DNA of 64,000 nucleotides from Methylobacter luteus IMV-B-3098. GTDB lineage: Bacteria > Pseudomonadota > Gammaproteobacteria > Methylococcales > Methylomonadaceae. Numbering within the stretch: the first letter of the stretch is position 1; every line of letters begins with the position of its first letter. The notes under the pieces are model-generated. The model was not told the DNA's origin. It worked only from the letters and a program-made list of their open reading frames with translations, and ran no database searches. The stretch covers positions 435,376 through 499,375 of the forward strand of contig NZ_KE386569.1 of the NCBI RefSeq assembly GCF_000427625.1, given 5' to 3'. Shown here in pieces: positions 10,402 through 38,040 of the stretch. The position numbers were made by a program, and so were the translations under genes.

Positions 10402-10477
10402 TGTTGTTCTCCTCGGTTTGTTATAGATGCGCGTTCGCCGTAAAATTCCGCGGTGAATGAGCAATTATTATCAGCGT

Positions 10478-13947: not shown

Positions 13948-13979
13948 AATCCTTATCTCCAGTGAAGTAGGCTTGATTT

Positions 13980-16341: not shown

Positions 16342-17364
16342 TTATTCCTCTTGAGGAGTCGATAAATCCAGGAAGTGCCGGGTCACCGGAACCGACTTGG
16401 GCGAAACGGCTGGTTTAGCGTCCTCCAGTTTCAGCGTATGGGTGGCAACAGGCGCCCTGTCGGCTATCGGCGTTATCTTGACGGTGTTGTCAGGAATCGC
16501 CGTGACCGCATTCACTCTGGTCGTATTAGCCGAGGCATTACCGGCGGCATTCGTTTCGGCCGCATCCGTTGAGGCGTTATCGATATCCTCCATTTCGGAA
16601 ACTTCTTTGTCTATGTCAAAACCGTCCGCTTCCTGTGATGGGGCACTGCCGTCGTTGACCAGGAATTCACGGTGCTGCTGGTAGGAGTTTTTGATGAATT
16701 CATAGCGGTCCACGGCCGCTTCGTCGATCATTTTTTCCGTCGACATCAAGCCGGCTCTCGTATCGGCGACATCGACCGCGCTGGAAGCCAACGATACGGC
16801 ATTGACCATGCCGCCGGAAAGCAGAAAGGCATAGGTCAAAGGGCTCAGGAGGGCATCGCCAAGCAGGCCGACCGCCTCGCGCGGTGAACTGGCGCCGGCG
16901 AACGGCAGCACCAGATAAGGGCCGGAGGGAATGCCCCAATAGCCCAAAGTCTGGCCGAAATCCTCATCGTGTTTGGGCAAATCGATATGCTTGGCCACAT
17001 CGAAAACCCCGACTACCCCGGCCGTCGTGTTGATCAGGAAACGGCTGGCGTCCATGCCGGCCTGCAGCATTTTAAACTGCAGCAGATCGTTGACGGTGAC
17101 GCCGATATCGTTCAGGTTGCTGAAGAAGTTGGACACGCCTTCGTCGACCGCATCCGAGGTTATCCACAGGTAACCTTTCGCCATCGGTTTTAAAATAACG
17201 TCGTCGACATCATCGTTAAATGACTGCGCGCCCCGGTTCCAGCCTTCCAAAGGGTCGTTCGCGTTGGCTTCCCCCGTTTTGGGCGTCGTCGCGCAACCGC
17301 CCAGCATGCCTGAGATAATCAGGCCGGCGGCTAACAGGCGGGTATTTATAATGGATTTTTGCAT
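16342..17364 (-). CDS. mlaA: MlaA/VacJ family outer-membrane lipoprotein
   Basis: MlaA removes mislocalised phospholipid from the outer leaflet of the outer membrane and passes it to the Mla system. The signal peptide ends in a lipobox (GMLGGC, Cys24). The family core follows: DPLEGWNRGAQSFN, FFSNLNDIGVTVNDLLQFK, FGQTLGYWGIPSGPYLVLPF. The C-terminal ~100 residues are low-complexity, rich in Ala, Asn and Thr, and go beyond the usual family length (E. coli MlaA 251, here 340). It ends 4 bp before the acyltransferase/hydrolase start, suggesting one transcript. An MCE-type transporter that could be its partner is encoded at 30.3-33.8 kb. Confidence 0.93.
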   Translation of the reverse strand: MQKSIINTRLLAAGLIISGMLGGCATTPKTGEANANDPLEGWNRGAQSFNDDVDDVILKPMAKGYLWITSDAVDEGVSNFFSNLNDIGVTVNDLLQFKMLQAGMDASRFLINTTAGVVGVFDVAKHIDLPKHDEDFGQTLGYWGIPSGPYLVLPFAGASSPREAVGLLGDALLSPLTYAFLLSGGMVNAVSLASSAVDVADTRAGLMSTEKMIDEAAVDRYEFIKNSYQQHREFLVNDGSAPSQEADGFDIDKEVSEMEDIDNASTDAAETNAAGNASANTTRVNAVTAIPDNTVKITPIADRAPVATHTLKLEDAKPAVSPKSVPVTRHFLDLSTPQEE

Positions 17365-20808: not shown

Positions 20809-21324
20809 ATGAGAATGTTTCTTGCCTTGCTGATGCTGGCCGGTTTTCTTTCAGGTGCCGTCTTGATGGTGGTTCCGCATTCCAAGGCGCTGTTTTCGCT
20901 CATGACGTCCGATGCGCCGTCGGCATTGCCGATTCCCGTGCAAGGCGTATCGCGCAAGGCGATCGCCGACTCCTGGGGCAACCCGCGCAGCGGCGGCAGG
21001 CAGCATAAGGGCATCGACATTTTCGCCAGACGCGGCACGCCGGTGCTTGCGCCGGTCCGGGGCCTGGTTATCGGTATGGGGGAGAATCGTCTCGGCGGCA
21101 ATAATGTCAGGCTCTTGGGGCCAGGGCTTCAGGTCCATTACTTCGCGCATCTGGATCGCTTCGGGCCTGTTAAAGCCTATGAACTCGTCCAGCGCGGCGA
21201 TGTGATCGGCTACGTCGGCGATAGCGGCAATGCCAAAGGCGGGCCGACGCATCTGCATTATGGGATTTATGCTTACCGCGAGGGCGCGATCAATCCGTAT
21301 CCGTTGCTTGTGGCGGGGGAATGA
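20809..21324 (+). CDS. M23 family metallopeptidase (LytM domain)
   Basis: This is a small peptidoglycan endopeptidase of 171 residues with an N-terminal signal or membrane anchor (FLALLMLAGFLSGAVLMVV). The zinc site is typical of M23: QHKGIDIFA supplies the first His and the Asp, and THLHYGIY the HxH motif. VHYFAHLD is also characteristic. It stands alone, opposite to its neighbours, and is followed by two palindromic repeats. The zinc motifs are complete, so it is probably an active hydrolase acting in the periplasm. Confidence 0.88.
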   Translation: MRMFLALLMLAGFLSGAVLMVVPHSKALFSLMTSDAPSALPIPVQGVSRKAIADSWGNPRSGGRQHKGIDIFARRGTPVLAPVRGLVIGMGENRLGGNNVRLLGPGLQVHYFAHLDRFGPVKAYELVQRGDVIGYVGDSGNAKGGPTHLHYGIYAYREGAINPYPLLVAGE

Positions 21325-21486: not shown

Positions 21487-24066
21487 TTACTGAACACGAT
21501 ACTGCACAAACACCCCAAAAACATGCTCGCCATAATTCTCCGGAATCGCATTCAGAAACAGGTGATTGCCGATCAGCGGCGTGAGTCCGTCGTAATGCCA
21601 GTCCTGTATGGTGTTGTGTTCATAGCGATGATAGAACCGCATCGATATGTCCTTGCGCAGGTTCCACCTTAAGTTGGTTTCCAGAATATGCCTGTCGAAA
21701 TTAATCACCGGAAAGCTGTTGTTAGTCGCCTGGTTGCCGACATCCGGATTGGCGAAGGCCAGATTGGATGCGGCGTCATAGTCAACGTGAGTGTCCGCCC
21801 AGTTATATGAATAACGGATGTCGATATCGAACGGGTTGAACTGGTAGCGAAAGCCGAGTCCTATCAGGTGGTTGATGTCGTCGACGGATTCTTGCCAGGC
21901 GGCGGCATAGGGAAAGCGGCTTCCGCCGGCATTAGGGTCGGCCGAGAAGCCGATATCGTTGATATTGCTGAGCTGGCTTTCCTGCTTTTGAAAACTGTAG
22001 AAAGCGTAGGCATTCAGTCGTGACGAAGGCTGATAGTTGCCTTCCAGATTGGCCGAGAGGGTCCGGGCGTTTTGCAGTCCGTAACGGACGTCATAATCGT
22101 TGTCGGTCCAGTTCACGGAAGCGAGCAGATCCAGGTCGTCGCGTAGCAGAAAATTGGCCTGGGCCTTGACCTGGTTCTGATACCGGTCGCTCAAATCGTA
22201 TTTTCTCAGATCGGCGAGCGTATGCGGCGTGACACCGTCGGGCAGCGACGATCTGAATCCGGGCAGCGAGGCGGTATAGAAAGGCACGTAGGGATTATAG
22301 TTGTAATCGCTGCCGTCCCGGACCGCGTATTCATAAGACAGGCGCAAGGTGGTCCAGGACAGCGAACGGTTCGATAAGTGGATTTTAAAATGGTTTTCGT
22401 CGGTGCTGTCGCGCTCGCGGTAGCTGGGATCATGCTGTTCAAAATGATAGCTGAAGCCGGCCGTGGTCTTGTAGCTGAGCCGGTAATCGGTATCGAGGAA
22501 CCAGTCCATGACTTCTTGCGAGAAGGGGATGCTTCGGTAGTGGAAAGGGCTTTGCGGCGAGGCCGGCCTGAAAACCTCGCCGCCTTGCGAACCGTCTTCG
22601 AGGATCAGGCCATATTGACGGGTTAGCGGGTTGAACGCGGTATAGTCCGTATCGTTGGCTTCGTTGTAATAGCGGAATTTCGCTTTCAGCGTCAACGGGT
22701 CCCATGGCGCCAGTTGCAGGCCCAGTTGAAACAGCCAGTTCGTGATCTCGGCATTAGCCGTTTTCTGCGACAGCGATGCGGCGGAATTCCACTGGTCCAT
22801 GTCGATGCCGGTAAAGGTCCGGCCTGAGTTGATAGTTGACGGGAGCAGGTCATCGTCCTGATACATGCGCGACCATGACAGGGTCGAGGTCAGTTGCCCG
22901 CGCAGCGGCAGTCTGTAGGCAAGATCGGTTTTTACCTGGTGGAAAGTATTGTCGGGATATAAATCGAAGCGGCCGCGTTCGATGATAAAGTCCGTGCCAG
23001 GAAGATTGGTGAACGGGTTGTCGAAGGTCAACTGGCCTTTGTCATTGGCGAAAAATGAGCCGGTATAGTTCAGGTTAAGTTCCAAATCGGCATCGGCATA
23101 GCTGAAGCCGGAACGTATTTCGTTGGTCGTGTAATCGATGGGTTCGATGGTTTCGACCATGCCGCCTGAGTTCGGGCCGGCATAGAACGGCGGCAGGAAT
23201 GATCCGCCGAAGGCCCGCCTGCCGTCGCGTGTTTCATGGGAGAAATCGGCGAAGAATTTCATGCCCAGCGTCGGCGTATAGTTGAAGCCGATGCGGCTTT
23301 CCTCCCGGTTGATGCCCAGATCGGGGTTATAGGCCGATGCCAGAGCCTGCCGGATCTGCTCGCGGCTATTGCTGCCGGGAACGAGACCGGACGGCAAGCT
23401 CAGGTTTTCGCTGCCGACGCCCTGGAACAGTGTCAGGGCATTATCGGTATAGGTATGCGGCGTCTGGTTGAAAAAGCCGTTGATCCTGAAGGTGCCGAGC
23501 TGGCCTGTCGATAACTGATAATACTGATCATCACGCCCGACGCCGCCGCCTTGCGCGTCGAGAAAATAGCCTTCGCGCTCCTGCCAGCCCGACAGCGAAA
23601 AATAATTGAGCAGGGGACCTGTGCGCCAGTCGCTGTAATCATTAAATTTTGAAGACGATCTTCTGTCGCTGCCGAATAAATAGCCGAAATCCAGGCTGCC
23701 CCGGTACCGCCAGTCTTCGTTCAGCTTTTTATAACTTAATGGCGCATAGGGAGAGTTGTACAGCAGACCGCTCGGCGTTCTGGAAGGGTGTTCCTTCAAA
23801 GCGGAAAGTCCCTGCGAGGATTTGGTCCGGGTTATATCGGTGCCTGTGGGATTGAGATGGTTTCCGGGCGGGTTGCCTATGCCTGTCGCCGACGAGGCAA
23901 AAGCCAGCGATGCGATAAGCAAAGCGGTGCGCTGGCTGCCGAAACGGCCAGCGCCGATAACGGGCAGCACTGCCGCGTCATCGATGGAAAAGCATGCCTG
24001 CCGCATGATTGGAGCCATGAATCTGAGCATGGCAGTTTTGACAGCTTCGGTTGATGAGGCGCGCAT
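21487..24066 (-). CDS. mtrB: MtrB/PioB-family outer-membrane beta-barrel
   Basis: MtrB/PioB proteins form a large barrel that sheathes a decaheme cytochrome and lets electrons cross the outer membrane. The protein has up to 859 residues, with repeated alternating polar/aromatic strands (DWRYRGSLDFGYLFG; ELNLNYTGSFFAND; FDIDIRYSYNWADTHVD) and a C-terminal strand ending in FGVFVQYRVQ, typical for barrel assembly. The exact start is uncertain: in-frame ATGs at 24066, 24030, 24018 and 24006 all lie inside the decaheme gene. A hydrophobic segment (TALLIASLAFASSATG) is the likely signal. The overlap with mtrA (up to 89 bp) indicates coupled expression. Confidence 0.85.
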   Translation of the reverse strand: MRASSTEAVKTAMLRFMAPIMRQACFSIDDAAVLPVIGAGRFGSQRTALLIASLAFASSATGIGNPPGNHLNPTGTDITRTKSSQGLSALKEHPSRTPSGLLYNSPYAPLSYKKLNEDWRYRGSLDFGYLFGSDRRSSSKFNDYSDWRTGPLLNYFSLSGWQEREGYFLDAQGGGVGRDDQYYQLSTGQLGTFRINGFFNQTPHTYTDNALTLFQGVGSENLSLPSGLVPGSNSREQIRQALASAYNPDLGINREESRIGFNYTPTLGMKFFADFSHETRDGRRAFGGSFLPPFYAGPNSGGMVETIEPIDYTTNEIRSGFSYADADLELNLNYTGSFFANDKGQLTFDNPFTNLPGTDFIIERGRFDLYPDNTFHQVKTDLAYRLPLRGQLTSTLSWSRMYQDDDLLPSTINSGRTFTGIDMDQWNSAASLSQKTANAEITNWLFQLGLQLAPWDPLTLKAKFRYYNEANDTDYTAFNPLTRQYGLILEDGSQGGEVFRPASPQSPFHYRSIPFSQEVMDWFLDTDYRLSYKTTAGFSYHFEQHDPSYRERDSTDENHFKIHLSNRSLSWTTLRLSYEYAVRDGSDYNYNPYVPFYTASLPGFRSSLPDGVTPHTLADLRKYDLSDRYQNQVKAQANFLLRDDLDLLASVNWTDNDYDVRYGLQNARTLSANLEGNYQPSSRLNAYAFYSFQKQESQLSNINDIGFSADPNAGGSRFPYAAAWQESVDDINHLIGLGFRYQFNPFDIDIRYSYNWADTHVDYDAASNLAFANPDVGNQATNNSFPVINFDRHILETNLRWNLRKDISMRFYHRYEHNTIQDWHYDGLTPLIGNHLFLNAIPENYGEHVFGVFVQYRVQ

Positions 24067-24922
24067 CCGGATTGGAGGCCGACGCCAGATTTCCGGTGGT
24101 CAGCAAATCGTTGGGATGCCCGCGGTTGGTATGGCAGGTCTGGCATAAAAACGGCCTGGTGCTGACCAGCAGCGATTCGTGATTGGAGCCGTGCGGCTGA
24201 TGGCAATTCAGGCAATTTTCCCGAACCGGTGCGTGCTCCCAAATGAAGGGACCGCGCTTTTCCTGATGACACTGATAGCAAACCTGATTGACCGTATCGG
24301 CTTTCAGTAATGGCGCGGTGCCGGAACCGTGCGGGTTGTGGCAGTCGGTGCAGGTGACTTTGCCTTCGGGCAAGGGCATGTGCGAGCGTTTTCTGAACTC
24401 GGCGCGCTGTTGCTGATGGCAACTGTAGCAGGTCTGATTGATGCCATCCTTGCCCAGCAGGCCTTTTTCCGAAAACCGCGCCATCGGATTGTGGCAATCG
24501 CTGCAACTCAAGTCGTTCATTTGGTGGGCCGAACCCGGCCAGGCGATGCGCTCCTTGCCTCGATGACACTGAAGACACATGGAGTTCTGCTGACGGATGG
24601 TCGAGCCTGACTGGCGGGTGAAGGCCATGATCTTCGATTTATCGGCAGGGTCCGATACATGTTCCGATCCGGGGCCGTGGCAGGTTTCGCAGCCTTCTAC
24701 TTTCGGATTATCCGGCGCGGCCAAATGAGGAATGCGCGCATGAATCGTATGGTTCCAGTGACTGGTTTCAAGTTCATGGCAGCTGGAACAGACGCTTGCT
24801 CCGACATATTGGGCATGGCTTTGCGCGGTACTGAGTTCCGGTTTCAGGGACGGCGGCGATAATGACGAACAGCTCATTATCGCCGCGATGCTGGCGATCA
24901 AAGTTAAATAAATCAGTCTCAT
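23978..24922 (-). CDS. mtrA: DmsE/MtrA-family decaheme c-type cytochrome
   Basis: This periplasmic multiheme cytochrome would carry electrons through the MtrB barrel. I count exactly ten CxxCH heme motifs: CSSCH, CETCH, CLQCH, CSDCH, CYSCH, CTDCH, CYQCH, CLNCH, CQTCH and CQNCH, spread over 314 residues, which is the size of MtrA/DmsE/PioA-type proteins. The N-terminal signal (MRLIYLTLIASIAAIMSC) ends in a Cys with a lipobox-like context, so it may be lipid-anchored. The 5' end of this gene (about 85 bp) exists in three further truncated copies between the upstream monoheme paralogues. No MtrC-like surface multiheme protein is encoded nearby. Confidence 0.93.
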   Translation of the reverse strand: MRLIYLTLIASIAAIMSCSSLSPPSLKPELSTAQSHAQYVGASVCSSCHELETSHWNHTIHARIPHLAAPDNPKVEGCETCHGPGSEHVSDPADKSKIMAFTRQSGSTIRQQNSMCLQCHRGKERIAWPGSAHQMNDLSCSDCHNPMARFSEKGLLGKDGINQTCYSCHQQQRAEFRKRSHMPLPEGKVTCTDCHNPHGSGTAPLLKADTVNQVCYQCHQEKRGPFIWEHAPVRENCLNCHQPHGSNHESLLVSTRPFLCQTCHTNRGHPNDLLTTGNLASASNPDARLINRSCQNCHAQIHGSNHAAGMLFHR

Positions 24923-25026: not shown

Positions 25027-26046
25027 TCATTGTGCGATAGGCGTGTAGCTGGTCAAGCTGAACTGCAACGGATCGGAACCCGTTATCAACTGCATTTCAG
25101 CGCTTACTTGATCTTCACTGACGCCGTTCCGCTGCAGATCAATAAGAGGCAGAGTGAGTATTCCGGATTCGGGGTCATAAGTCGCGGGAGTGTCCGAAGT
25201 TAGTGTGGTCAACTCTGCGTCTTCCAGTTCGAATCCAAGGCCGGTCGGACTGCTTGGGAGCTGGATGAGTTTCAGGATTGCACTGAACTTTTGCTCTCCG
25301 ACGTTGACGACCGGCAGTGCCAGCTTGTTTGCTTCATAAGAGAAGAAGGCGGTAGTTGGAATCTCTAAGCCACTTTCGTCCAAGCTAAACGTCATAGGAT
25401 CAGAGCCAGCCACTAATGTCAATTCGACATTCGTTGCCTGATCCTGGACAGTGCCGTTTTGTATCACATCCACCGAAGGTATGAGTACTTTTCCGGTTTC
25501 AGGAGTATACGTTGCGGCAGTATCCGAAGACGCTGTGGTCTGCTCAGCATTTTCCAGCACGAATCCATAGCCGGTCGGACTGCTTTCAAGCGGGATCAGC
25601 CTCAGGGTGGCATTGAATTTTTGACTGCCAACAATGACCACCGGAAGTTTCAACGTATTCTCAGTAAGATCAAAAGTGGCATTGGTAGAGGTGGCCGCCG
25701 CTTCTTGCGGGAAACCGGCGCTTTGCCATGCGAGCATGGCGGCTTTTTGTTCGTCGTTAAGCTTCGGGATGCCGCTGGCATCGGGTGGCATCGACATTTC
25801 CTCAACGGCCCTGACGATGGCGAGCTCCGCATTCGGTTCCGTTGCCTCGTAAGTATCCCAGTTGACAGTGGGTGGGGCCCCGTTACGCGCCGCGCCGCTC
25901 AGTTCGGATGAATGGCAGGCCAGACAGTTGGTGGCGAACACTTGCTCTCGAATGCCATTGGGGCCTTCATAAACCGGATCAATAGCGAAAGCATGGCCTG
26001 TGACAAGGAAAGAAAACAGTAAGACTAACGAGCTTTTTATATTCAT
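25027..26046 (-). CDS. Secreted monoheme cytochrome with two novel repeats, paralogue 1
   Basis: The 339-residue protein starts with a Sec signal peptide (KSSLVLLFSFLVTGHAFA). A class I-like cytochrome c domain follows (about 22-115) with heme motif CLACH at 41-45 and likely axial Met86 in SMPP. The rest is two copies of a ~95-residue beta-rich module, from about 125 and 230. Each copy begins LPVVxVGxQKFxA and continues with SSPTGxGF and LTTxxSDTxATYxPExG; it resembles no domain I know. There are three more paralogues upstream in the same orientation and the decaheme conduit gene is 105 bp downstream. A role delivering electrons to or from that conduit is inferred from context. Confidence 0.85.
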   Translation of the reverse strand: MNIKSSLVLLFSFLVTGHAFAIDPVYEGPNGIREQVFATNCLACHSSELSGAARNGAPPTVNWDTYEATEPNAELAIVRAVEEMSMPPDASGIPKLNDEQKAAMLAWQSAGFPQEAAATSTNATFDLTENTLKLPVVIVGSQKFNATLRLIPLESSPTGYGFVLENAEQTTASSDTAATYTPETGKVLIPSVDVIQNGTVQDQATNVELTLVAGSDPMTFSLDESGLEIPTTAFFSYEANKLALPVVNVGEQKFSAILKLIQLPSSPTGLGFELEDAELTTLTSDTPATYDPESGILTLPLIDLQRNGVSEDQVSAEMQLITGSDPLQFSLTSYTPIAQ

Positions 26047-26113
26047 AGGTTTACCTTTGGGGCTTGCAATAAAGTCGTGTCTGACAAATTATCTAACACG
26101 GAGACTTATTACA

Positions 26114-26127
26114 TTGATTTAAGTCAG
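26114..26127 (-). promoter_or_regulatory. FNR/CRP-like inverted repeat upstream of paralogue 1
   Basis: TTGATTTAAGTCAG matches the FNR/ANR consensus TTGAT-N4-ATCAA at 8 of 10 positions. It lies 68 bp upstream of the start codon, inside the segment conserved between the paralogues. Oxygen-dependent control is a hypothesis. Confidence 0.4.
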
Positions 26128-26217
26128 GTAAAATCTATTGTTGAGTATGAGCTTTGACTCTCATAATTGGGCGTCATACCCATCTCAGGCAGGGCATGTG
26201 TTTAAGGAGCTTTGTTG

Positions 26218-26308
26218 AATTCCGGTTTCAGAGGGGCTGCGGCGATAATGACGTACAGCTCATTATCGCCGCGATGCTGGCGATCAAAGTTAAATAAATG
26301 AGTCTCAT
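26218..26308 (-). pseudogene. Truncated 5' copy of the decaheme cytochrome gene, ghost 1
   Basis: On the minus strand from the ATG at 26306-26308 this reads MRLIYLTLIASIAAIMSCTS, nearly identical to the signal peptide of the decaheme cytochrome, then runs into a stop after 24 codons. Homology continues into the flanking sequence: 26220-26410 aligns with 24836-25026. It is a relic of the tandem duplication that created the paralogue array. Confidence 0.85.
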
Positions 26309-26395
26309 ACGTGAGAAGAAAATCCTTCATTAATAATTACTGCCTTTTTATAAACAGGACGCTATCGGCGGTAAACCAGTAATGTTAAGGCTTCA

Positions 26396-27439
26396 TTACT
26401 GGTTAGGTGGCTGTTGTTGTTCGATAGGCGTGAAACTGGTTAAGCTGAATTCTAGCGGTTGAGAGTCTTCCACCAATTGCATTTCGGCACTCACCGGACC
26501 CTCGCTGACGCCGTTTCGTATCAGATCGACAAAAGGCAGAATGACTTGTCCGGTTTCAGGGGTATAAGTCGCGGCATTGTCCGATGATGCCGTGGTTAGC
26601 TCGGCTGTTTCCAGTACAAATCCAGCGCCGGTTGGGCTGGTTTCGAGATTGATCAGCCTCAGGGTTGCCCGGAATGTTTGATCACCGACATTGACGACCG
26701 GCAGAGTCAAAATATTGGTATCGAAAGAGAAGGAGGCTTCAGTCGAAATATTCGGAAAACCGGGTTCTTCCAGGATGAACCGCATGGGATCCGAGTTTGG
26801 TATCAGCGTCAATTGGGCATCTTCCGTGCCTACGCTGGTGCCGTCTGTCGTCAGATTTACCGAAGGTATCGTTACTATCCCGGTTGCAGGGGTATAAGTC
26901 GCGGCATTGTCCGAAGACGCCGTGGTCAGCTCAGCGCTTCTCAGTTCGAAGCCGGAACCGGTAGGGCTGTCTTCAAGGGGGATGAGGTCAAGCGTTGCAT
27001 TGAACTTTTCATCGCCGACATTCACGACCGGCAGTCTCAGCGTGGTGCCATCGAAAGAGGAATCGGTAGCGGACGGAGGAGGGGGCGTAGTCGCTTCTCT
27101 AGGGAAACCGGCGCTTTGCCATGCGAGCATGGCGGCTTTTTGTTCGTCGTTAAGCTTCGGGATGCCGCTGCCGGTGGGCGGCATCGACTCCTCTTCCACG
27201 GCGCTGACGATGGCGCGCTCCGCATTCGGTTCCGTTGCCTCGTAGGTATCATAGTTGACATTGGGGGGAGCGCCGTTACGCGCCGCGCCGACTTTTTCCG
27301 ATGAATGGCAGGCCAGGCAGTTGGTGGCGAACACTTGCGCTCGAATGCCGTTGGGACCCTCATACACTGGATCAATAGCGAAAGCCTGACCTGTGATAAG
27401 GAAAAAGAACAGTGTGATCAACGAGCTTTTTATATTCAT
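26396..27439 (-). CDS. Secreted monoheme cytochrome with two novel repeats, paralogue 2
   Basis: The 347-residue protein has the same plan as its neighbours: signal peptide ending in AFA, heme motif CLACH (41-45), presumed axial Met in EEESMPP, then a Pro/Ser linker (TTPPPPSATD) and two ~95-residue repeats starting LRLPVVNVGDEKFNA and LTLPVVNVGDQTFRA. Both repeats carry the SPTGxGF and LTTASSDNAATYTPxTG signatures. The C-terminus is extended by a short Gln/Pro tail. AAGGTGA upstream of the ATG is a good ribosome site. A truncated decaheme 5' end lies on both sides of the unit. Its function is not established. Confidence 0.85.
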   Translation of the reverse strand: MNIKSSLITLFFFLITGQAFAIDPVYEGPNGIRAQVFATNCLACHSSEKVGAARNGAPPNVNYDTYEATEPNAERAIVSAVEEESMPPTGSGIPKLNDEQKAAMLAWQSAGFPREATTPPPPSATDSSFDGTTLRLPVVNVGDEKFNATLDLIPLEDSPTGSGFELRSAELTTASSDNAATYTPATGIVTIPSVNLTTDGTSVGTEDAQLTLIPNSDPMRFILEEPGFPNISTEASFSFDTNILTLPVVNVGDQTFRATLRLINLETSPTGAGFVLETAELTTASSDNAATYTPETGQVILPFVDLIRNGVSEGPVSAEMQLVEDSQPLEFSLTSFTPIEQQQPPNQ

Positions 27440-27514
27440 AGGTTCACCTTTAAGTGTGTTGCTTGAAATATAAAATCGTGACGCACAGGCTATCTAACAT
27501 CAAAAATCATGACA

Positions 27515-27528
27515 TTGACTTTAATCAG
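27515..27528 (-). promoter_or_regulatory. FNR/CRP-like inverted repeat upstream of paralogue 2
   Basis: TTGACTTTAATCAG matches TTGAT-N4-ATCAA at 8 of 10 positions, 76 bp upstream of the start. Its position relative to the gene matches the boxes of paralogues 1 and 3. Confidence 0.4.
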
Positions 27529-27617
27529 ATAAAAGCTGGTATTGGGTTTTTAATGTCTACACAAAGGCATGCCGTTTCGGGCGGGCTGAAATCACGCCGG
27601 CGGCATTGTCGCATTAC

Positions 27618-27690
27618 GGATTCAGGTACAGCGGAGATAATGGCGAACAGTTCATTATCGCCGCCTCTTCATTAGCATGGCCTTATTTTA
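27618..27690 (-). pseudogene. Truncated 5' copy of the decaheme cytochrome gene, ghost 2 (degraded)
   Basis: The stretch around ggagataatggcgaacag and ttcattatcgccgcc aligns with the decaheme gene's 5' end (24841-24890). It is interrupted by deletions and substitutions, and the start codon is no longer recognisable. It is the most decayed of the three relics. Confidence 0.65.
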
Positions 27691-27716
27691 GAAACAGCAT
27701 ATCCATACCCTTCGCA

Positions 27717-28736
27717 CTATTGAGCGCGGGGTATGGTGGCAAACCTGAGCAAACTCAGCACCGTTGGATTGGTGCCTACCAATTGCATTTCGGCCCGGAC
27801 TACGCTCTCGACAGTGTCATTTCGTATCATCTCAACGTAAGGCAGAACGAGTCGTCTGGTCGACGTGTTAAAAATAGCGGCATTGTCCGAAGTCGCGGTG
27901 GTCAATACGGCGCTCTGCAGCACGAATCCAATACGCGTCGGGCTACCTTCCAGAGGGATTAGTCTCAGGTTTGCCCGGAACCTTTGATTGCCGATAATAA
28001 CGACCGGCAGGTTCAGAACCCTGCTGTTAAAAGAGTAGCTGGCATTGGCTGGCACCACCAAGCGGGTATCCAGACTGAACAGCATTGGCCTGGTGCCCGG
28101 TACCAATGTCAGCTGGATATCCACAGTGCCTGTATTGACGCCATTTCGTATGACCGTTACCGAAGGCACGAGTACTCTTCCGGTTTGGATGTTGGCCGTG
28201 GCGGGAGCTCTCGACCTCTCCGTGGTCAGCACGGCGGATTCCAGCACGAATCCGAAGCCGGTCGGACTGCTTTCGAGCAGGGTGAGTCTCAAAACGGCAT
28301 TGAACCTTTGAGTGCCGACAATAACGACCGGAATTCTCAATCGAGTTCCATCAAAAGAGGAATTGGGCGCAACAGAGGTCGTGGCCGTGAGCGATTGCGG
28401 GAAGCCGGCGCTCTGCCATGCGAGCATGGCGGATTTTTGTTCATCGTTAAGCTGCGGGATACCGTTGCCGGCGGGCGGCATCGACATCTCTTCCACGGCC
28501 CTGACCATGGCGCGCTCGGCAGTCGGTTCCGTTGCCTCGTAGGTATCGAAGTTGATTTCGGGTGGGGCGCCGTTGCGATCCGGGCCGGTCAGTTCGGATG
28601 AATGGCAGGCCAGACAGTTAGTGGCGAACACCCGCTCTCGAATGCCGTTGGAGCCCTCATAGACCGGATCAATAGCGAAAGCGTGACCTGTGATAAGGAA
28701 AAAGAACAGTATGATCAACGAGCTTTTTATATTCAT
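27717..28736 (-). CDS. Secreted monoheme cytochrome with two novel repeats, paralogue 3
   Basis: The start is the ATG at 28736 (MNIKSSLIILFFF), which aligns with the other paralogues; an in-frame extension to 28796 runs into the shared promoter segment and is unlikely. The heme motif is CLACH and the axial Met lies in EEMSMPPAGNG. The two repeats begin LRIPVVIVGTQRFNA and LNLPVVIIGNQRFRA. This copy is the most diverged in the repeat region: many Arg substitutions and a changed SDxAATYTP motif (SRAPATANIQTG). It may therefore have drifted in function. An array context and signal peptide place it in the periplasm or outside the cell. Confidence 0.83.
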   Translation of the reverse strand: MNIKSSLIILFFFLITGHAFAIDPVYEGSNGIRERVFATNCLACHSSELTGPDRNGAPPEINFDTYEATEPTAERAMVRAVEEMSMPPAGNGIPQLNDEQKSAMLAWQSAGFPQSLTATTSVAPNSSFDGTRLRIPVVIVGTQRFNAVLRLTLLESSPTGFGFVLESAVLTTERSRAPATANIQTGRVLVPSVTVIRNGVNTGTVDIQLTLVPGTRPMLFSLDTRLVVPANASYSFNSRVLNLPVVIIGNQRFRANLRLIPLEGSPTRIGFVLQSAVLTTATSDNAAIFNTSTRRLVLPYVEMIRNDTVESVVRAEMQLVGTNPTVLSLLRFATIPRAQ

Positions 28737-28810
28737 AGGTTCACCTTTGTGTGTAGGCTCGAAATATAAAGTCGTGACACACAGGCTATCTAGCATCGAA
28801 AATCATGACA

Positions 28811-28824
28811 TTGACTTTAATCAG
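28811..28824 (-). promoter_or_regulatory. FNR/CRP-like inverted repeat upstream of paralogue 3
   Basis: TTGACTTTAATCAG is identical to the site of paralogue 2 and lies 75 bp upstream of the start at 28736. At the corresponding place upstream of paralogue 4 the motif has decayed. Confidence 0.4.
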
Positions 28825-28913
28825 ATAAAAAGCTGGTATTGAGTTTTTAATGTCTACATAGGGCATACCGTTTCGGGCAGGCTAAGATCAAGCCGGCGGA
28901 AGCATTGCTGAGT

Positions 28914-29004
28914 TACGGTTTCAGGGATGGCGGCGATAAGAGCGAACAGAACAGCTCATTATCGCCGCCATGCTGGCGATTAAAGGCAAATAAACCAGTC
29001 TCAT
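28914..29004 (-). pseudogene. Truncated 5' copy of the decaheme cytochrome gene, ghost 3
   Basis: From the ATG at 29002-29004 the minus strand reads MRLVYLPLIASMAAIMSCS, clearly the decaheme signal peptide. A 5-bp duplication (aacag) then shifts the frame and a stop follows after about 30 codons. Confidence 0.82.
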
Positions 29005-29040
29005 ACGCGTGATGAGGAATGCTTCATGCTTCAAGCCCAA

Positions 29041-30060
29041 TTATTGGCTTCCTGGATACCAGGGTGATGCAGGTATAACGCTAAAACCAGTGATGCTGAA
29101 CAGTAACGGATCGGAGCCGGCTACCAATTCCATATCGATAAACATCACGCCCTGTCTGACGCCGTTTTGTATCAGTTTTACCACTGGCAGAACGATTTGC
29201 CCGGTTTCAGGGTTAAAAGTTGCCGTATCGTCCGAAGACGCCGTGGTTAGTTCAGCGCTGTCCAGCACAAATCCTCCGCCTGTCGGACTAGTGAGGAGGG
29301 GGATTGATCTCAGGATGGCATGGTACTTTTGATTGCCGACATTGACGACCGGCAGGGTCAGTAGATGGCCATCAAAAGTAGCCGGAGACGAAATGATCGG
29401 AAAATTGGGACTTTCCAAAGTAAAGATCATTGGAGCAGAGCCTGTTACCCACGTCATTTGAGCATCTCCGCTGCCTTGACTGACGCCTTTTTCTATCAAT
29501 TCCACTGAAGGTAATAGCATTTGCCCGGTTTCAGGATCGAAAGTCGCGGCTTTATCCGAGGACACAGTAGTCGGCACGACGCTATCCAGTACGAATCCGT
29601 AGCCGGTCGGACTATTTTTGAGAGGGGTTGATATAAAAGTAGCACGGGCTTTTTGGTCACCGATATTAAGGACAGGGAGTATCAGAACAGTGCCGTCAAA
29701 AGAGGAGTTAGAAGGAATCGTATTCGGAAAACCGGTGCTTTGCCATGCGAGCATGGCGGCTTTTTGCTCATCGTTAAGCTGTGGAATGCCGCTGCCGGCG
29801 GGCGGCATCGTCATCTCTTCCACGGCCCTGACGATGGCGCGCTCCGCATACGGGAGTGTTGCCTCGTAAGTATCCCAGTTGACATTGGGTGGGGCGCCTC
29901 TACGCGCCGAGCCCAGGTCGGATGAATGGCAGTCCAGACAGTTGGTGGCGAACACTTGCGCTCGAATGCCGTTGGGACCCTCATACACCGGATCAATAGC
30001 GAAAGCCTGACTCGTGATAAGGAAAAAAAATAACAGGGCTAACGATCTTTTTATATTCAT
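29041..30060 (-). CDS. Secreted monoheme cytochrome with two novel repeats, paralogue 4
   Basis: This 339-residue copy is the first gene of the array in transcription order. It has a signal peptide (SLALLFFFLITSQAFA), heme motif CLDCH (41-45), axial Met in EEMTMPPAGSG, and two repeats beginning LILPVLNIGDQKARA and LTLPVVNVGNQKYHA. It shares its upstream region with the divergent mlaE gene and lacks a clear FNR-like box. No decaheme fragment lies upstream of it, so it marks the outer border of the duplicated block. Function is unknown beyond binding one heme c. Confidence 0.84.
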   Translation of the reverse strand: MNIKRSLALLFFFLITSQAFAIDPVYEGPNGIRAQVFATNCLDCHSSDLGSARRGAPPNVNWDTYEATLPYAERAIVRAVEEMTMPPAGSGIPQLNDEQKAAMLAWQSTGFPNTIPSNSSFDGTVLILPVLNIGDQKARATFISTPLKNSPTGYGFVLDSVVPTTVSSDKAATFDPETGQMLLPSVELIEKGVSQGSGDAQMTWVTGSAPMIFTLESPNFPIISSPATFDGHLLTLPVVNVGNQKYHAILRSIPLLTSPTGGGFVLDSAELTTASSDDTATFNPETGQIVLPVVKLIQNGVRQGVMFIDMELVAGSDPLLFSITGFSVIPASPWYPGSQ

Positions 30061-30278: not shown

Positions 30279-31424
30279 ATGACTGATGCCGCAATACATC
30301 CGGATTCTCCAGCACTGCTGAAAGTCCATAAGCAAAAGGACGGCAATAAAGTGATCAAATTGTCAGGCAACTGGACGCTACGCAATCTGGCGATGGCGCC
30401 TCTATTGCGACATAAACTCAAGAAGTATGCCGGTGACCAGACTATGCAATGGGACATGCACGCGGTTGATGTACTCGACAGCGGCACGGCCTTGGTTCTC
30501 TGGCAGGATTGGGGGGAACGGATGCCGGCGGCGCTCAGGGTACGGCCGGAGCATCAGCGCCTGTTCGAGCGCTGGCAATCACGGCAGCTTAAAATTATAG
30601 AACCCGAGCCCAAGAGTTCCCGGTCGCTCCTGATATCCCGTTATCTGCAGCGAACGATTGGGAGCTTCTGGCTTCAACTGCTGGACCTGATCATGTTATT
30701 GGGCCAGCTGGCGCTCGATATAGCTTATTTGCTGCGGCGTCCGCGCGCTGTTCCCTGGCCCGAGATCTCAGACACGATTTATGAAGCGGGCGTTCGGGCT
30801 CTGGGCATTACGGCATTGGTCGGTTTTCTGATCGGCATTGTGCTCAGTTATCTGTCGGCGCTGCAATTAAAGTTGTTCGGGGCCGAGATTTATATTATCG
30901 ATATTCTGGGCCTGAGCGTTATTCGCGAGTTGGGGCCATTGCTCGCGGCCATTCTGGTCGCCGGCCGATCCGGTTCGGCCATGACCGCGCAGATCGGCAT
31001 CATGCGCGTTACCGAGGAACTGGATGCGCTGTCCGCAATGGGCATTTCCCACTCCATGCGTTTGATTCTGCCCAAAGTGGCGGCGCTGGCGATTTCAATG
31101 CCTCTGCTGAGCGTCTGGACCAGTGCCATGGCGCTGGTCGGCGGCATGGTTTCGGCGCAGAATACGCTGGATATCAGTTACCAGCAGTTTTTTCTCAAAT
31201 TGCCCGATGTGGTGCCGCTGCTCAATGTTTTTATCGGGCTGGGCAAGAGCGTCGTATTCGGTTTGATGATAGCGTTGATCGCCTGCCATTTCGGATTTCG
31301 CATCCAGCCCAACACCGAAAGTCTTGGCTTCGAGACGACCAATTCCGTAGTAGCCGCGATTACCGTGGTTATTATGGTCGATGCCGTATTCGCGATCCTG
31401 TTTATGAATGTGGGCATGCCATGA
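30279..31424 (+). CDS. mlaE: MlaE-family ABC permease with N-terminal STAS-like domain
   Basis: This is the membrane subunit of an MCE-type phospholipid transporter in the inner membrane. Residues 1-110 form a STAS/MlaB-like domain (VIKLSGNWTLRNL; MHAVDVLDSGTALVLW). The MlaE permease part follows with five to six membrane helices and the family core RELGPLLAAILVAGRSGSA with TEELDALSAMG. Fusion of the STAS part to MlaE is common outside the enterics. The gene overlaps the next by ATGA, starting a four-gene operon. The partner for lipid delivery could be MlaA at 16.3-17.4 kb. Confidence 0.92.
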   Translation: MTDAAIHPDSPALLKVHKQKDGNKVIKLSGNWTLRNLAMAPLLRHKLKKYAGDQTMQWDMHAVDVLDSGTALVLWQDWGERMPAALRVRPEHQRLFERWQSRQLKIIEPEPKSSRSLLISRYLQRTIGSFWLQLLDLIMLLGQLALDIAYLLRRPRAVPWPEISDTIYEAGVRALGITALVGFLIGIVLSYLSALQLKLFGAEIYIIDILGLSVIRELGPLLAAILVAGRSGSAMTAQIGIMRVTEELDALSAMGISHSMRLILPKVAALAISMPLLSVWTSAMALVGGMVSAQNTLDISYQQFFLKLPDVVPLLNVFIGLGKSVVFGLMIALIACHFGFRIQPNTESLGFETTNSVVAAITVVIMVDAVFAILFMNVGMP

Positions 31425-32269
31425 CCGAGCTCCCGACAAATGCTCCAGCGACCATTGAGTCACCCGCAGACGCCGGCACATCCATGCCGCCATGCGCGAT
31501 ACGGCTGGAACACGTCTGGACCAGCTTCGGCGATAAGGCCGTCCATAAGGATATCAATCTTTGCTTGCCGCAAGGCCAGATTCTGGGGTTGGTGGGCGCG
31601 TCGGGTTCCGGCAAGACGGTTTTGTTGCGCGAGATCATCGGCCTGCAAATACCCACTCAGGGCGAGGTGTCCGTGATGGGGCAGTCTTTGACCAATATTA
31701 CGCCCGGTAGCGAACTGCGGTTGCGCAACAATTGCGGCGTGCTGTTTCAGAAAGGCGCATTGTTCAGCGTGCTGGATGTCTTCGAAAACATTGCCTTCCC
31801 ATTGCGCGAACTGGGCATTCGTGACGAAGAATTGATCAGGCATCTGGTCTTCATGAAACTGGAAAACGTAGGGCTGGCGGCCAGGGATGCCTGGCTGAAA
31901 CCGGCCGATTTGTCCGGCGGCATGACCAAACGGGTCGCGCTTGCCCGTGCGCTGATCGTTGAGCCGCCGTTGCTGCTGCTGGACGAGCCGACCTCGGGGC
32001 TGGACCCTATTTCCAGCGAGGACTTTGTCGAGCTGTTATCGGGACTGCATCGCGAGCTCAAATTCACGGTCGTCATGGTGACGCATGATCTGGATATATT
32101 GAGGGATTTATGCACGCAAGTCGCGGTGCTGGCCGATCATCAACTGGTCGCATTCGGGCCGCTGGCTACGGTCTTGAGCAGCAAACATCCTTTTGTCGAG
32201 CAATTTTTTCACAATAGACGCGCTGAGCGGGTATTTCAATTTCAAGAGACTACGCATGGGCAAAAATAA
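31421..32269 (+). CDS. mlaF: MlaF-family ABC ATPase
   Basis: This ATPase drives lipid transport by the MlaE complex. Walker A is GASGSGKTVLL, the signature is LSGGMTKRVALARAL, Walker B is LLLLDEPTSGLD and the switch His is in VTHD. LSGGM with KR is typical of MlaF/Mkl ATPases. The N-terminus has ~25 extra residues rich in Pro, Ala and Thr before the ABC core. Its start overlaps mlaE by 4 bp and its end overlaps the MCE gene by 14 bp, so stoichiometry is likely kept by coupled translation. Confidence 0.93.
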   Translation: MTELPTNAPATIESPADAGTSMPPCAIRLEHVWTSFGDKAVHKDINLCLPQGQILGLVGASGSGKTVLLREIIGLQIPTQGEVSVMGQSLTNITPGSELRLRNNCGVLFQKGALFSVLDVFENIAFPLRELGIRDEELIRHLVFMKLENVGLAARDAWLKPADLSGGMTKRVALARALIVEPPLLLLDEPTSGLDPISSEDFVELLSGLHRELKFTVVMVTHDLDILRDLCTQVAVLADHQLVAFGPLATVLSSKHPFVEQFFHNRRAERVFQFQETTHGQK

Positions 32270-33170
32270 CCACGCATTGATGACCGGCCTGTTTTTGGTG
32301 GCTTTAATTACAGCTACCGTGGTCGTGATCTACTGGATAGGCCATTTTGAGCGTGAACGCGATTTGTATGTAATCTCAACACGTCAATCCGTTTCCGGCC
32401 TCAATCCCGAATCCACGGTGTTTTACCGTGGCATTGCCGTGGGCAAAGTACGGAAGATCCAGTTTGATCCGAAAGATTTCGGTACCATCCTGGTGCCGAT
32501 TGAAGTCGACAAAGACATCACGCTGACCAAAGGCGTATACGCCACTTTGCGGTTAAAAGGCGTCACCGGCTTGACTCAGATCGAATTACAGGATGACGGT
32601 AAAGTTCAGGAGGTTTTGCCGCCCGGCAATGATCCCATGACACGCATTCCCTTAGTGCCTTCCTTGACCGACAAGCTGATGCTTTCGGGCGAAGACCTTC
32701 TTAAAAAAGCCGAGCAGATCATGGGCCGTCTTAACTCATTGCTGAATGAAGAAAACGAAAAAAATATCAGCGAAATTCTTGATAATTTCAATACCTTGAC
32801 CGCCAAGTTTTCCGATTTGCAAATGGCCGTGGATAAAGCGTTGGCCGGTGTTCCGGCGTTAAGCGCCGACGCCCAAAAGACATTAACACATATCAATGCC
32901 TTGACTGACGATCTAAAGCTGTTAACCCGCAATGTGCAAACGCTCAGCAATAAAGCGGAAAGCCTTGCCGATAAGGGCCAAACAACCGGTGATCTTTTAT
33001 TGCAAACGACGTTGCCGAAAATTAACGATCTGCTGTCCGAATTGCAATCGACGACAACGCAGGTTAAGCGCGTAGCCACGATGCTCGAAAACAACCCTCA
33101 AAGCTTGCTGTTGGGGCCGGCTGAACCAGAACCCGGCCCGGGCGAACCCGGCTATAAGGAGCCGAAATGA
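32256..33170 (+). CDS. mlaD: MCE-domain protein (MlaD-like)
   Basis: This is the periplasmic, membrane-anchored substrate-binding ring of the lipid transporter. One transmembrane helix (LFLVALITATVVVIYWIG) is followed by the MCE core (SVSGLNPESTVFYRGIAVGKV; LKGVTGLTQIELQ) and a long alpha-helical C-terminal part. It is about 304 residues long, larger than E. coli MlaD (183), and resembles the single-MCE proteins of Proteobacteria with a helical tail. The start at 32256 is chosen because the helix then begins at the N-terminus; an upstream in-frame codon at 32193 lies inside mlaF. Confidence 0.9.
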   Translation: MGKNNHALMTGLFLVALITATVVVIYWIGHFERERDLYVISTRQSVSGLNPESTVFYRGIAVGKVRKIQFDPKDFGTILVPIEVDKDITLTKGVYATLRLKGVTGLTQIELQDDGKVQEVLPPGNDPMTRIPLVPSLTDKLMLSGEDLLKKAEQIMGRLNSLLNEENEKNISEILDNFNTLTAKFSDLQMAVDKALAGVPALSADAQKTLTHINALTDDLKLLTRNVQTLSNKAESLADKGQTTGDLLLQTTLPKINDLLSELQSTTTQVKRVATMLENNPQSLLLGPAEPEPGPGEPGYKEPK

Positions 33171-36799: not shown

Positions 36800-36886
36800 A
36801 TTTCATTACGGTTGATGAACCGCCCTGTGCGGAGCCGCATGCAGGGTGGTGTGGGGACTGGGGGCTAGTTACCTCCGGTTACCCGA
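36800..36886 (+). mobile_element. Group II intron 3'-end fragment (domains V-VI)
   Basis: Positions 36819-36850 fold as a ~32-nt domain V hairpin: ACCGCCCTG pairs with CAGGGTGGT, a 2-nt bulge follows, then GCG/CGC with a short loop. Domain VI (36851-36886) follows and ends in TTACCCGAT, the typical intron 3' end. Only this end is present; no reverse transcriptase ORF or 5' GUGYG end was seen. The fragment ends 9 bp before the stop codon of the disrupted gene that lies on the other strand. Confidence 0.65.
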
Positions 36887-37091
36887 TTATAAGCCTATCT
36901 ACCCGCAACTCGCATACCTAAGATAGCTTGAACCATTGCGCTTGCTTGATCTTCACTAACCATTAGCGTTGTTCTATAAAATTTACAGTCCTCTACCGTA
37001 CAATTTTTTAAAACTATAATTCCAGTTAGCAACGTATTATCTGGAAGCGGAATAATGTCCCCTGTTTCATTGAAACTAGAGCAATTATCTA

Positions 37092-37754
37092 TTACGTAGA
37101 AACATAGCCTGAATGCCTGAAGAGATTGAGGCACTCATCCGCTTGAAACTCATCCAACAGCTTACCAATGAGTTGCCAGAGCTTGTCGTAAGTGCGCTCG
37201 GCGGCCTTGCGCAGCAACGCCTTCAGTTTGGCGAAGACTTGCTCGATCGGATTCAGCTCAGGACTATAGGGCGGCAGATATTGGATCGTCGCCCCGTGCG
37301 CTTCAACAATGGACTGGACTTCCGCCACCTTATGGGCGGACAGATTGTCACAGATGACGATGTCGCCGGGCTTCAAGGTCGGTCCCAGTTGCGAGCGCAG
37401 ATATTCCTTGAAGGCTTCGCCCGTCATGGCCTGGTCCAGACACCAGGGCGCGGTGAGCCGGTCGGCACGCAAGCCGGCAATGAAGGTCAGGGTTTGCCAA
37501 TGGCCTGCCGGTGCCGCATCCCGACAGCGGGCGCCACCCAAGGCCCGGCCATAGCGACGGATCATGTTCGTGGAGACGCCCGTTTCATCCAGAAACACCA
37601 ACTTTGACAGATCGCAGGTTTGCTGCCAGGCTTGCCATTGCTCTCGGGCCATCGCGACATCTGCGCGTTGCTGCTCACTGGCGACCAGCGTTTTTTTTAT
37701 AGCGATAGCCCAGCTTGCGCCTAATAAACTTATCAATGGCCGAGATCGAAACAC
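37092..37754 (-). CDS. IS630-type transposase, DDE catalytic part (orfB)
   Basis: This frame carries the DDE domain: LVFLDETGVSTNM (first Asp), IVICDNLSAHKV (second Asp) and LPPYSPELNPIEQVF (third acidic residue, Glu). Those are hallmarks of IS630 transposases. The frame opens inside orfA and probably has no start of its own. A run of eight A on the coding strand (IRxKLGYRYKK / KKTLVASEQQ) is the expected frameshift site joining it to orfA; the shift needed is +1 (or -2). Confidence 0.88.
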   Translation of the reverse strand: MFRSRPLISLLGASWAIAIKKTLVASEQQRADVAMAREQWQAWQQTCDLSKLVFLDETGVSTNMIRRYGRALGGARCRDAAPAGHWQTLTFIAGLRADRLTAPWCLDQAMTGEAFKEYLRSQLGPTLKPGDIVICDNLSAHKVAEVQSIVEAHGATIQYLPPYSPELNPIEQVFAKLKALLRKAAERTYDKLWQLIGKLLDEFQADECLNLFRHSGYVST

Positions 37755-38040
37755 TTAGGCTGTGTTCGCGTCCCAGCCAAGCCTGCAGTTCCTGCAAGGT
37801 CATCGACGGACTACTCGCTAACTGTTCCTTGATGGCGGCTTCATAAGGTTCCAGCCGCGAGCGTCTGTAGCCGCCAAAGGGCTTGCCTTGAACGGCTCCG
37901 GTTTCACGCCACAAGGCGTGCATTCGGCAGACAAAGGCCGGACTGACTTTGTATTGTAAAGCCACGGCCCGCACGGTGTGGCCTGCGGCAACCGCTTCAG
38001 CCACCCGGCTGCGTAAATCTTCGGAATAAGGCTTGGGCAT
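37675..38040 (-). CDS. IS630-type transposase, helix-turn-helix part (orfA)
   Basis: This 121-residue frame is the DNA-binding N-terminus of the transposase. It has a winged helix-turn-helix (PYSEDLRSRVAEAVAAGHT; ALQYKVSPAFVCRMHALW) and a second HTH (MTLQELQAWLGREHSLSVS), and ends shortly after the poly-A stretch where it would shift into orfB. Inverted repeat ends lie outside both frames. Confidence 0.88.
   Translation of the reverse strand: MPKPYSEDLRSRVAEAVAAGHTVRAVALQYKVSPAFVCRMHALWRETGAVQGKPFGGYRRSRLEPYEAAIKEQLASSPSMTLQELQAWLGREHSLSVSISAIDKFIRRKLGYRYKKNAGRQ

Follow-up and report, generated by a model that had tools for sequence, protein, structure and literature searches.

Tandem monoheme cytochromes sharing a repeat tail upstream of an MtrAB-type gene pair in Methylobacter luteus IMV-B-3098

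The cytochrome array and the MtrAB genes

We analyzed a stretch of 64,000 nucleotides (nt) from Methylobacter luteus IMV-B-3098, hereafter designated as the window (coordinates without a locus label are positions within it), which belongs to a genome of 5.03 Mb in 4 contigs. In this window, four genes for exported monoheme cytochromes, here termed c1, c2, c3, and c4, are followed on the minus strand, towards lower coordinates, by mtrA and mtrB in this order (Table 1). An earlier note on the window had proposed that four tandem cytochromes at 25027-30060 are co-oriented with, and directly upstream of, mtrA-mtrB. The tandem was confirmed by four open reading frames (ORFs), each bearing one CxxCH and, as judged by eye, a Sec-type signal, and the arrangement by the positions of the ORFs together with the family matches described below. 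The start of c2 was set at 28736, which aligns with the other copies; the listed ORF extends to 28796.

Table 1. Features of the cytochrome array and the adjoining mtrA-mtrB genes in the window.
Feature	Coordinates	Strand	Details
c1: exported monoheme cytochrome with four-repeat tail	29041-30060	minus	heme domain ~29725-29997, tail ~29074-29715
mtrA 5'-end remnant, c1-c2 gap	28908-29027	minus	82.5% over 120 columns
c2: c1-like architecture	27717-28736	minus	heme domain ~28398-28673, tail ~27732-28373; basic tail, pI 11.6
mtrA 5'-end remnant, c2-c3 gap	27614-27664	minus	86% over 51 bp
c3: c1-like architecture	26396-27439	minus	heme domain ~27101-27376, tail ~26423-27073; acidic tail, net -24
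mtrA 5'-end remnant, c3-c4 gap	26216-26334	minus	92% over 120 columns
c4: c1-like architecture	25027-26046	minus	heme domain ~25708-25983, tail ~25036-25689; acidic tail, net -21
mtrA: decaheme cytochrome of the MtrA/DmsE family, lipobox pattern IMSC	23978-24922	minus	10 CxxCH
mtrB: outer-membrane barrel	21487-24066	minus	overlaps the mtrA end; PF11854

The two genes following the array could be assigned to known families. MtrA matched TIGR03508 (DmsE/MtrA family) with an E-value of 1e-76 (257.9 bits against a cut-off of 192.2), as well as the solved Shewanella chain 6r2q_A with an E-value of 1e-64, and MtrB matched both PF11854 (MtrB_PioB; 6e-129, 431.9 bits) and TIGR03509 (283.7 bits against a cut-off of 240.05). 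As both proteins are recognized as members of these families, mtrA-mtrB is predicted to encode a porin-cytochrome conduit of the MtrAB/MtoAB/PioAB type. The earlier note had stated that an MtrC-like surface cytochrome is absent; in the entire genome containing the window (the window genome), the MtrC family (TIGR03507) gave three weak matches (best E-value of 6e-7), none of them above the cut-off. The two weak matches that were read are eight-CxxCH proteins of other-looking kinds (L135 and L136): by eye, one (769 residues) has TPR-like end repeats, and the other (569 residues) resembles hydroxylamine oxidoreductase.

The compared pairs among c1-c4 were 57-70% identical. Each of the four proteins starts with a Sec-type signal (AFA/IDPVYEG), which appears by eye to be of the cleavable type and to lack a lipobox, and contains one CxxCH and one MPP motif with an invariant methionine. 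The SMPP regarded as conserved in the earlier note is present in c2-c4 but is replaced by TMPP in c1, leaving MPP as the invariant part. Pfam heme-domain matches were weak (E-values of 1e-5 to 3e-3), and the Cytochrom_C profile placed two of the four proteins above and two below the cut-off; we infer that the heme domain is small and of the c type, with His/Met ligation predicted. Both CxxCH and MPP are retained in all of the 10 array cytochromes of three species, namely those of the window genome (G000) and two related genomes (G002 and G003). The phylogeny based on the heme domain alone had little resolution, with three of the 13 branches starred. The net charge of the tail spans -24 to +9 within the window array. 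Opposite tail charge was rejected as a conserved feature, as the c2 orthologues have net charges of -5 and -4 and the basic tail is thus not kept.

Architecture and fold of the tail

The tail of c1-c4 comprises ~220 residues, and its repetition is beyond chance, because eight copies of 207 nt are seen in the array at the DNA level. The earlier note had described two modules of ~95 residues per protein, amounting to eight copies. The repetition is real, but each module turned out to consist of two homologous repeats of ~50 residues: the comparison between the profiles of the first and second halves of the module scored 21.6 (E-value of 3e-4), against 13.1 or less in 40 column-shuffled controls. 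Thus, there are four repeats per tail and 16 copies in the array, and a conserved motif recurs approximately every 55 residues. The single-repeat profile detected four repeats in each of c1-c4, two in the FW305 and BinT2 cytochromes as well as in both oryzae copies, and one in five shorter relatives, three of which were weak matches (domain E-values of 0.004 to 0.05). The heme domain is present in L016, which has no repeat by this profile.

The module had been noted as unrecognized, and indeed no Pfam or NCBIfam family matched the window tails above the cut-off. The same was true of the tail part of the scanned relatives with a single exception, a distant relative in the window genome (L011:7324-8451), of which the repeat region matched Pfam GEVED narrowly above the cut-off (25.5 vs 24.4 bits). 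A link between the tail repeat and GEVED is possible on the basis of this match. AlphaFold modelled c3 with a pLDDT of 74 and the c3 tail alone with a pLDDT of 88 and a pTM of 0.61, and in these models each repeat forms a run or meander of three to four strands. Neither model had a Foldseek match for the tail fold at E <0.001 or a match at Z >=5, which is not proof of a new fold. Among the weak matches (Z <=4.2), many were propeller proteins by title; ring closure was not seen in the models.

The tail on proteins other than cytochromes

Within the genus of the window genome, the four-repeat tail was also found at the C-terminus of lysyl-oxidase-like (LOX) proteins with Big_7 (Ig domain) in the window genome (L009:8319-11063), G002 (L069:6383-9064), and G003 (L070), and of a GSDH-type dehydrogenase in G003 (L068:6154-8049). 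The Lysyl_oxidase match was above the cut-off in L069 and not in L009; L070, which stood outside the scan, is 93% identical to L069. In the tail phylogeny, the LOX tails of G002 and G003 grouped with c1 (support of 99/99) and the GSDH tail with c4 (86/89). As these tails are intermixed with the array tails, the phylogeny suggests that tails were swapped between genes.

Divergent tail copies were detected on a di-heme MauG-type protein, a PhoD phosphatase, a lipase, and RCC1, FG-GAP, and laminin-G proteins. Profile A4 matched 38 of the 301 genomes of the order, and the broader profile A5 matched seven of the 369 class genomes and two of the 299 phylum genomes, the window genome being included in both of the latter counts. 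None of the 25 tail-bearing ORF rows from other class genomes, some of which represent the same gene or are cut by the end of a locus, contained CxxCH. A special link of the module to electron transfer is not supported. The earlier note had named homologues in mainly unrelated contexts as a refuting result, and this is largely what was found, on LOX-like, GSDH-type, and many other exported non-cytochrome proteins. Nor does the module mark decaheme systems exclusively; that reading was rejected because such tails also sit on exported proteins other than cytochromes, in the window genome and in others. Related N-terminal repeats were seen in an exported protein of 650-700 residues with no Pfam or NCBIfam match (L071:8768-10774), and similar ORFs are present in several genomes of the family.

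Association with MtrAB across genomes

When 201 genomes of the family were searched with the window MtrA at 1e-60, 26 genomes matched. Six of them (G000, G002, G003, G128, G066, and G097) possess MtrA sequences of 67-100% identity, here termed the window-type MtrA, and the other 20 matched at 40-46%. All of the six genomes with the window-type MtrA have tail-bearing cytochrome genes upstream of mtrA in the same direction, which upholds the earlier proposal that the array is tied to MtrAB. Among named relatives, the locus was seen in Methylobacter sp. FW305_bin.9, in a Methylococcaceae bin, and in Candidatus Methylobacter oryzae KRF1, the last with one copy beside mtrA; these relatives belong to the same family but to other genera in the taxonomy used. 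A genome of the same genus (G001) matched neither the array cytochromes nor mtrA. G051 retains a broken cytochrome gene; it is absent from the 26 genomes with an MtrA match, and its fetched 16 kb shows no mtrA or mtrB. A megablast search found no close relatives on plasmids.

A lipobox-like cysteine precedes the first heme in all of the six window-type MtrAs (IMSC, IISC, or AISC). The same pattern was found in one of the 18 other family MtrAs (L090, FLSC) and in none of the 11 class MtrAs. By this pattern matching, which is not a predictor result, the window-type MtrA is a putative lipoprotein.

Loci were read for 18 of the 20 other family genomes, and none of these loci contained a relative of the window heme domain at 1e-3. 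A single CxxCH is present in the ORF listed closest upstream of mtrA, on the same strand, in 16 of these 18 loci, five of the 16 ORFs being of 312-320 residues (L087-L091), ten of 114-140 residues, and one of 485 residues (L093, perhaps mis-called). The two exceptions are L099, which has none, and L103, where the contig ends. In the class, MtrA at 1e-50 matched 17 of 273 genomes besides that of the window, all from other families and with a best identity of 46%; a multiheme ORF lies upstream of mtrA in seven of the 11 class loci, and in two of the class loci (L172 and L177) a one-CxxCH ORF is situated between the multiheme ORF and mtrA.

A second pairing of the tail repeat with a cytochrome was found in four of the 18 loci (G086, G130, G174, and G168), where a one-heme cytochrome of ~150 residues with a different heme domain ends in a single tail repeat (L087:4045-4506, L088:6167-6616, L089:9951-10400, and L090:4072-4521). 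The repeat matches had E-values of 2e-6 to 6e-4, and no other ORF of the 18 loci had a tail match at E 0.01. These cytochrome genes are situated ~2-2.5 kb upstream of mtrA and are followed by a four-CxxCH gene and a gene for a one-CxxCH protein of 312-320 residues, and their heme domains gave only short matches to those of c1-c4, with E-values of 0.04 or worse. As the repeat-bearing heme domain of L087-L090 is a different one, the tail repeat appears to have been joined to a monoheme cytochrome in MtrAB clusters at least twice.

Members of the cytochrome family occur away from mtrA as well. One-repeat relatives lie apart from mtrA in G086, G011, G174, and G090, and so does a second copy in G097. 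Extra copies elsewhere in the genome were found in the window genome (contig C2) and in G066 (C82). The former, a fifth four-repeat cytochrome with insertions in the tail (L010:9680-10828), is located on a contig of 318 kb, and no mtrAB match was found within the 20 kb fetched.

History of the array

Remnants of the 5' end of mtrA were detected in all three gaps of the window array (Table 1), in all three gaps of G002, and in two of the three gaps of G003. Given remnants in all of the window gaps, we propose that the array grew in place, and each duplication seems to have carried the start of mtrA along with a cytochrome gene. We also considered the remnants as functional micro-ORFs; their frames are open in two of the three gaps of the window, but in relatives they are disrupted or altered, and hence they are read as remnants.

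In the tail phylogeny, c1, c2, and c4 were orthologous across the three species (support of 99/99, 100/99, and 99/96, respectively), and c3 was unresolved. The ratio of nonsynonymous to synonymous substitutions (dN/dS) between species was 0.20-0.34 for the array genes and 0.08-0.16 for mtrA and mtrB, and a heme-less tail gene shared by G002 and G003 had a dN/dS of 0.23. Judged by the orthologous copies and the dN/dS of 0.20-0.34, the array is older than the split of the three species and is maintained by purifying selection. The tails of the cytochrome family form a series of one, two, and four repeats. The array probably derives from a unit of one cytochrome, bearing fewer repeats, beside mtrA; later, the repeats would have doubled and the gene would have been copied in place along with the start of mtrA.

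Comparison with known systems

The locus shares with Shewanella MtrCAB an MtrA and an MtrB/PioB barrel encoded together, but differs in having no MtrC-family protein above the cut-off, the lipobox pattern of MtrA, and the tail-bearing monoheme cytochromes upstream. MtoAB-MtoD of Sideroxydans lithotrophicus likewise comprises a decaheme cytochrome, a porin, and a monoheme cytochrome in one cluster. MtoD was described as a periplasmic bis-His shuttle of +155 mV, with MtoA hemes of +30 to -350 mV (PMC4412085), and its role as a periplasmic shuttle was also given in a paper which includes a CymA-like gene in the Mto cluster (PMC12016527). Unlike the small, single-domain, bis-His MtoD, c1-c4 bear a four-repeat tail and the invariant MPP methionine, are predicted to be His/Met-ligated, and occur in four copies; the window locus also has no counterpart of the CymA-like gene. 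MtoD was absent from the 60 listed of the 70 matches to a profile (A3), which favours neither view.

A further comparison is with the putative extracellular electron transfer gene cluster reported in 2026 for Methylobacter on bioanodes, which shows conserved synteny and consists of a periplasmic monoheme cytochrome, MtrA, MtrB, and an inner-membrane monoheme cytochrome, with no MtrC/OmcA homologue and a proposed outward electron flow (PMC13322032). The two loci have in common related bacteria, a monoheme cytochrome together with MtrA and MtrB, and no MtrC/OmcA. In contrast to that cluster, the window locus has no inner-membrane monoheme cytochrome: the next clear gene beyond mtrB (20809-21324) is in the opposite orientation and has no CxxCH. 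By gene content alone, with no sequence comparison to those of the paper, we equate the 2026 cluster with our loci L092-L104, which contain a one-CxxCH gene of 114-140 residues, MtrA, MtrB, and, in most of them, a one-CxxCH gene of ~241-276 residues. The MtrAs of L092-L104 are 40-42% identical to that of the window, and the one monoheme cytochrome compared (L098) shares with c3 only a stretch of 10 residues round the heme motif (E-value of 0.02). The identity cut-off of 70% in the 2026 paper would miss the window locus.

The tetraheme-associated MtrAB of other Methylococcaceae (L087-L091) resembles the window locus in having cytochromes upstream, including the one-heme cytochrome with a single tail repeat in L087-L090, but differs in its MtrA (42-46% identical) and in encoding a four-CxxCH protein and the one-CxxCH protein of 312-320 residues. 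Group 6 mtrCAB (PMC8805035, published in 2022) has a predicted periplasmic monoheme cytochrome among its neighbours, a likeness by description only, but includes MtrC. MtrAB homologues were reported for Methylobacter with no tails or arrays in the parts of the papers seen (PMC6344600 and PMC12810054), and our searches of an open-access library turned up no paper on the tail or the array. What is new here is a separate MtrAB lineage with an array of tail-bearing monoheme cytochromes; the kind of MtrAB conduit itself has already been known.

Proposed function and alternatives

We regard it as likely that the locus encodes an MtrC-less, lipoprotein-type MtrAB with dedicated exported monoheme carriers in a bacterium of a methanotroph family. 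MtrAB would be the conduit across the outer membrane, served by single-heme cytochromes in place of a multiheme MtrC. After export by a putative route, c1-c4 would exchange electrons with MtrA through their heme domains, and the tail, presumably carrying no electrons, would hold the carrier at the surface or to a partner, as a module that this lineage also places on other exported enzymes.

Several observations weigh against this proposal. Promoter-like sites (9 vs 8.5 in shuffles) and terminator-like sites (10 vs 10.8) were no better than in shuffled sequences, so that a fixed promoter or operon structure was dropped and co-transcription of the array with mtrAB is unsupported. The heme domain of c3 was poorly modelled, with ten-residue means of pLDDT of 37-63. 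The NapC/NirT quinol oxidiser profile (PF03264) matched above the cut-off, across the window genome, only inside mtrA itself, and the inner-membrane link is therefore missing. In G002 and G003, it is the heme-less tail gene (L066:3674-4405 and L067:11321-12052) that adjoins mtrA, with three cytochromes behind it. In four genomes, the fetched locus of a one-repeat relative contains no mtrA, and two of them, G011 and G090, gave no match to MtrA at 1e-60, so the cytochrome family does not need MtrAB. The extra copy of G066 has MPS instead of MPP. Finally, the second pairing is confined to the genus g21 and may be a single event, and g21 holds other tail copies too.

The proposal may take two more exact forms, which are mutually exclusive. 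Nearly an even chance is given to c1-c4 being periplasmic carriers that shuttle electrons between MtrA and cytochromes of the inner membrane or of methanol oxidation, with the tail tethering them near the outer membrane. This agrees with the cleavable-type signals lacking a lipobox, with the periplasmic role described for MtoD beside mtoA (PMC4412085 and PMC12016527), and with the one-CxxCH ORF nearest upstream of mtrA in 16 of the 18 other family loci, as the 2026 paper places its monoheme cytochrome in the periplasm (PMC13322032); in L172 and L177, moreover, the monoheme cytochrome accompanies a multiheme one rather than replacing it. The tail, on the other hand, is shared with proteins of which the domains suggest the exterior (LOX-like with Ig, lipase, and PhoD phosphatase). 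It is also quite conceivable, if somewhat short of even odds, that c1-c4 cross the outer membrane, for instance by type II secretion, and reside at the external side of MtrAB or within the matrix, replacing MtrC. For such extracellular partners speak the lack of an MtrC-family match above the cut-off, the presence of gspD in the genome, the position of c1-c4 just upstream of mtrA, where seven of the 11 class loci have a multiheme ORF, the tail in common with probably extracellular enzymes, the expansion of the array, and the range of tail charges. The basic c2 tail, however, is not kept in its orthologues, and one heme compares poorly with the heme chain of MtrC. In Shewanella, soluble outer-membrane cytochromes have been described as being exported by the type II route (PMC6929479). 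We consider it unlikely that the interface is MtrC-free in the stronger sense of a lipid-anchored MtrA whose outer end is served by a mixture of tail-bearing monoheme cytochromes and, in relatives, heme-less tail proteins; if true, this would be an extracellular electron exit of a methanotroph built from many one-heme units, with the tail repeats holding the units together or to the surface.

The direction of flow allows a further alternative, which we find rather doubtful: inward flow as in Mto/Pio-like oxidation of ferrous iron or minerals, with c1-c4 passing electrons from MtrA towards high-potential oxidases. A His/Met monoheme is typically of high potential, and it would suit acceptance from low-potential MtrA-type hemes. 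The same order of potentials is seen between MtoA and MtoD, although the latter is bis-His (PMC4412085), and no CymA-like quinol oxidase was found above the cut-off. Nevertheless, the locus has no feature that fixes the direction, the names of the relatives mark the family as methanotrophic, and the published proposal for it is outward flow (PMC13322032). That function resides in the tail and the heme is incidental, the array comprising exported adhesive or structural proteins lying by chance beside mtrAB, appears improbable. The tail is widespread without a heme, and the heme-less member is kept beside mtrA in two species with a dN/dS of 0.23. Against this, CxxCH and MPP are kept in all 10 array cytochromes, the heme domain persists in the one-repeat relatives, where the tail is shortest, and in another MtrAB cluster the repeat is attached to a second heme domain of a different kind.

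The locus bears on whether aerobic methanotrophs, once oxygen is exhausted, can transfer electrons derived from methane to minerals or electrodes, a question raised again in the 2026 paper (PMC13322032). The analysis separates a system-specific cytochrome from a widely shared, unnamed tail repeat joined to two heme domains in MtrAB clusters, and the window locus supplies concrete genes for deletion and localization.

Surroundings of the locus

An FNR-like box upstream of the array genes was tried and rejected: the best matches contained 1-4 mismatches and were equalled in 10 to 300 of the 300 shuffles. The block was also dropped as being common to the copies through duplication and weak in single-copy relatives.

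On one side of the locus lies a gene for an MlaA lipoprotein (16342-17364), and on the other side mlaE and neighbouring transport genes (30279-33170). The genes mlaE, mlaF, and mlaD flank the array alike in the window genome, G002, and G003, MlaE being assigned by Pfam and MlaF and MlaD being named by position and resemblance. Beyond mlaA, an FGGY kinase is encoded, along with an oxidoreductase that looks GlpD-like by eye. Genes for an acyl-CoA dehydrogenase, a 3-hydroxyacyl-CoA dehydrogenase/enoyl-CoA hydratase, a thiolase, and an alpha/beta hydrolase are consecutive at 7969-16337, a beta-oxidation-like set that is unexpected for a methanotroph. On the far side, an Rfam group II intron match (36818-36887, 43.9 bits) lies near ORFs at 37092-38040 that appear transposase-like by eye.

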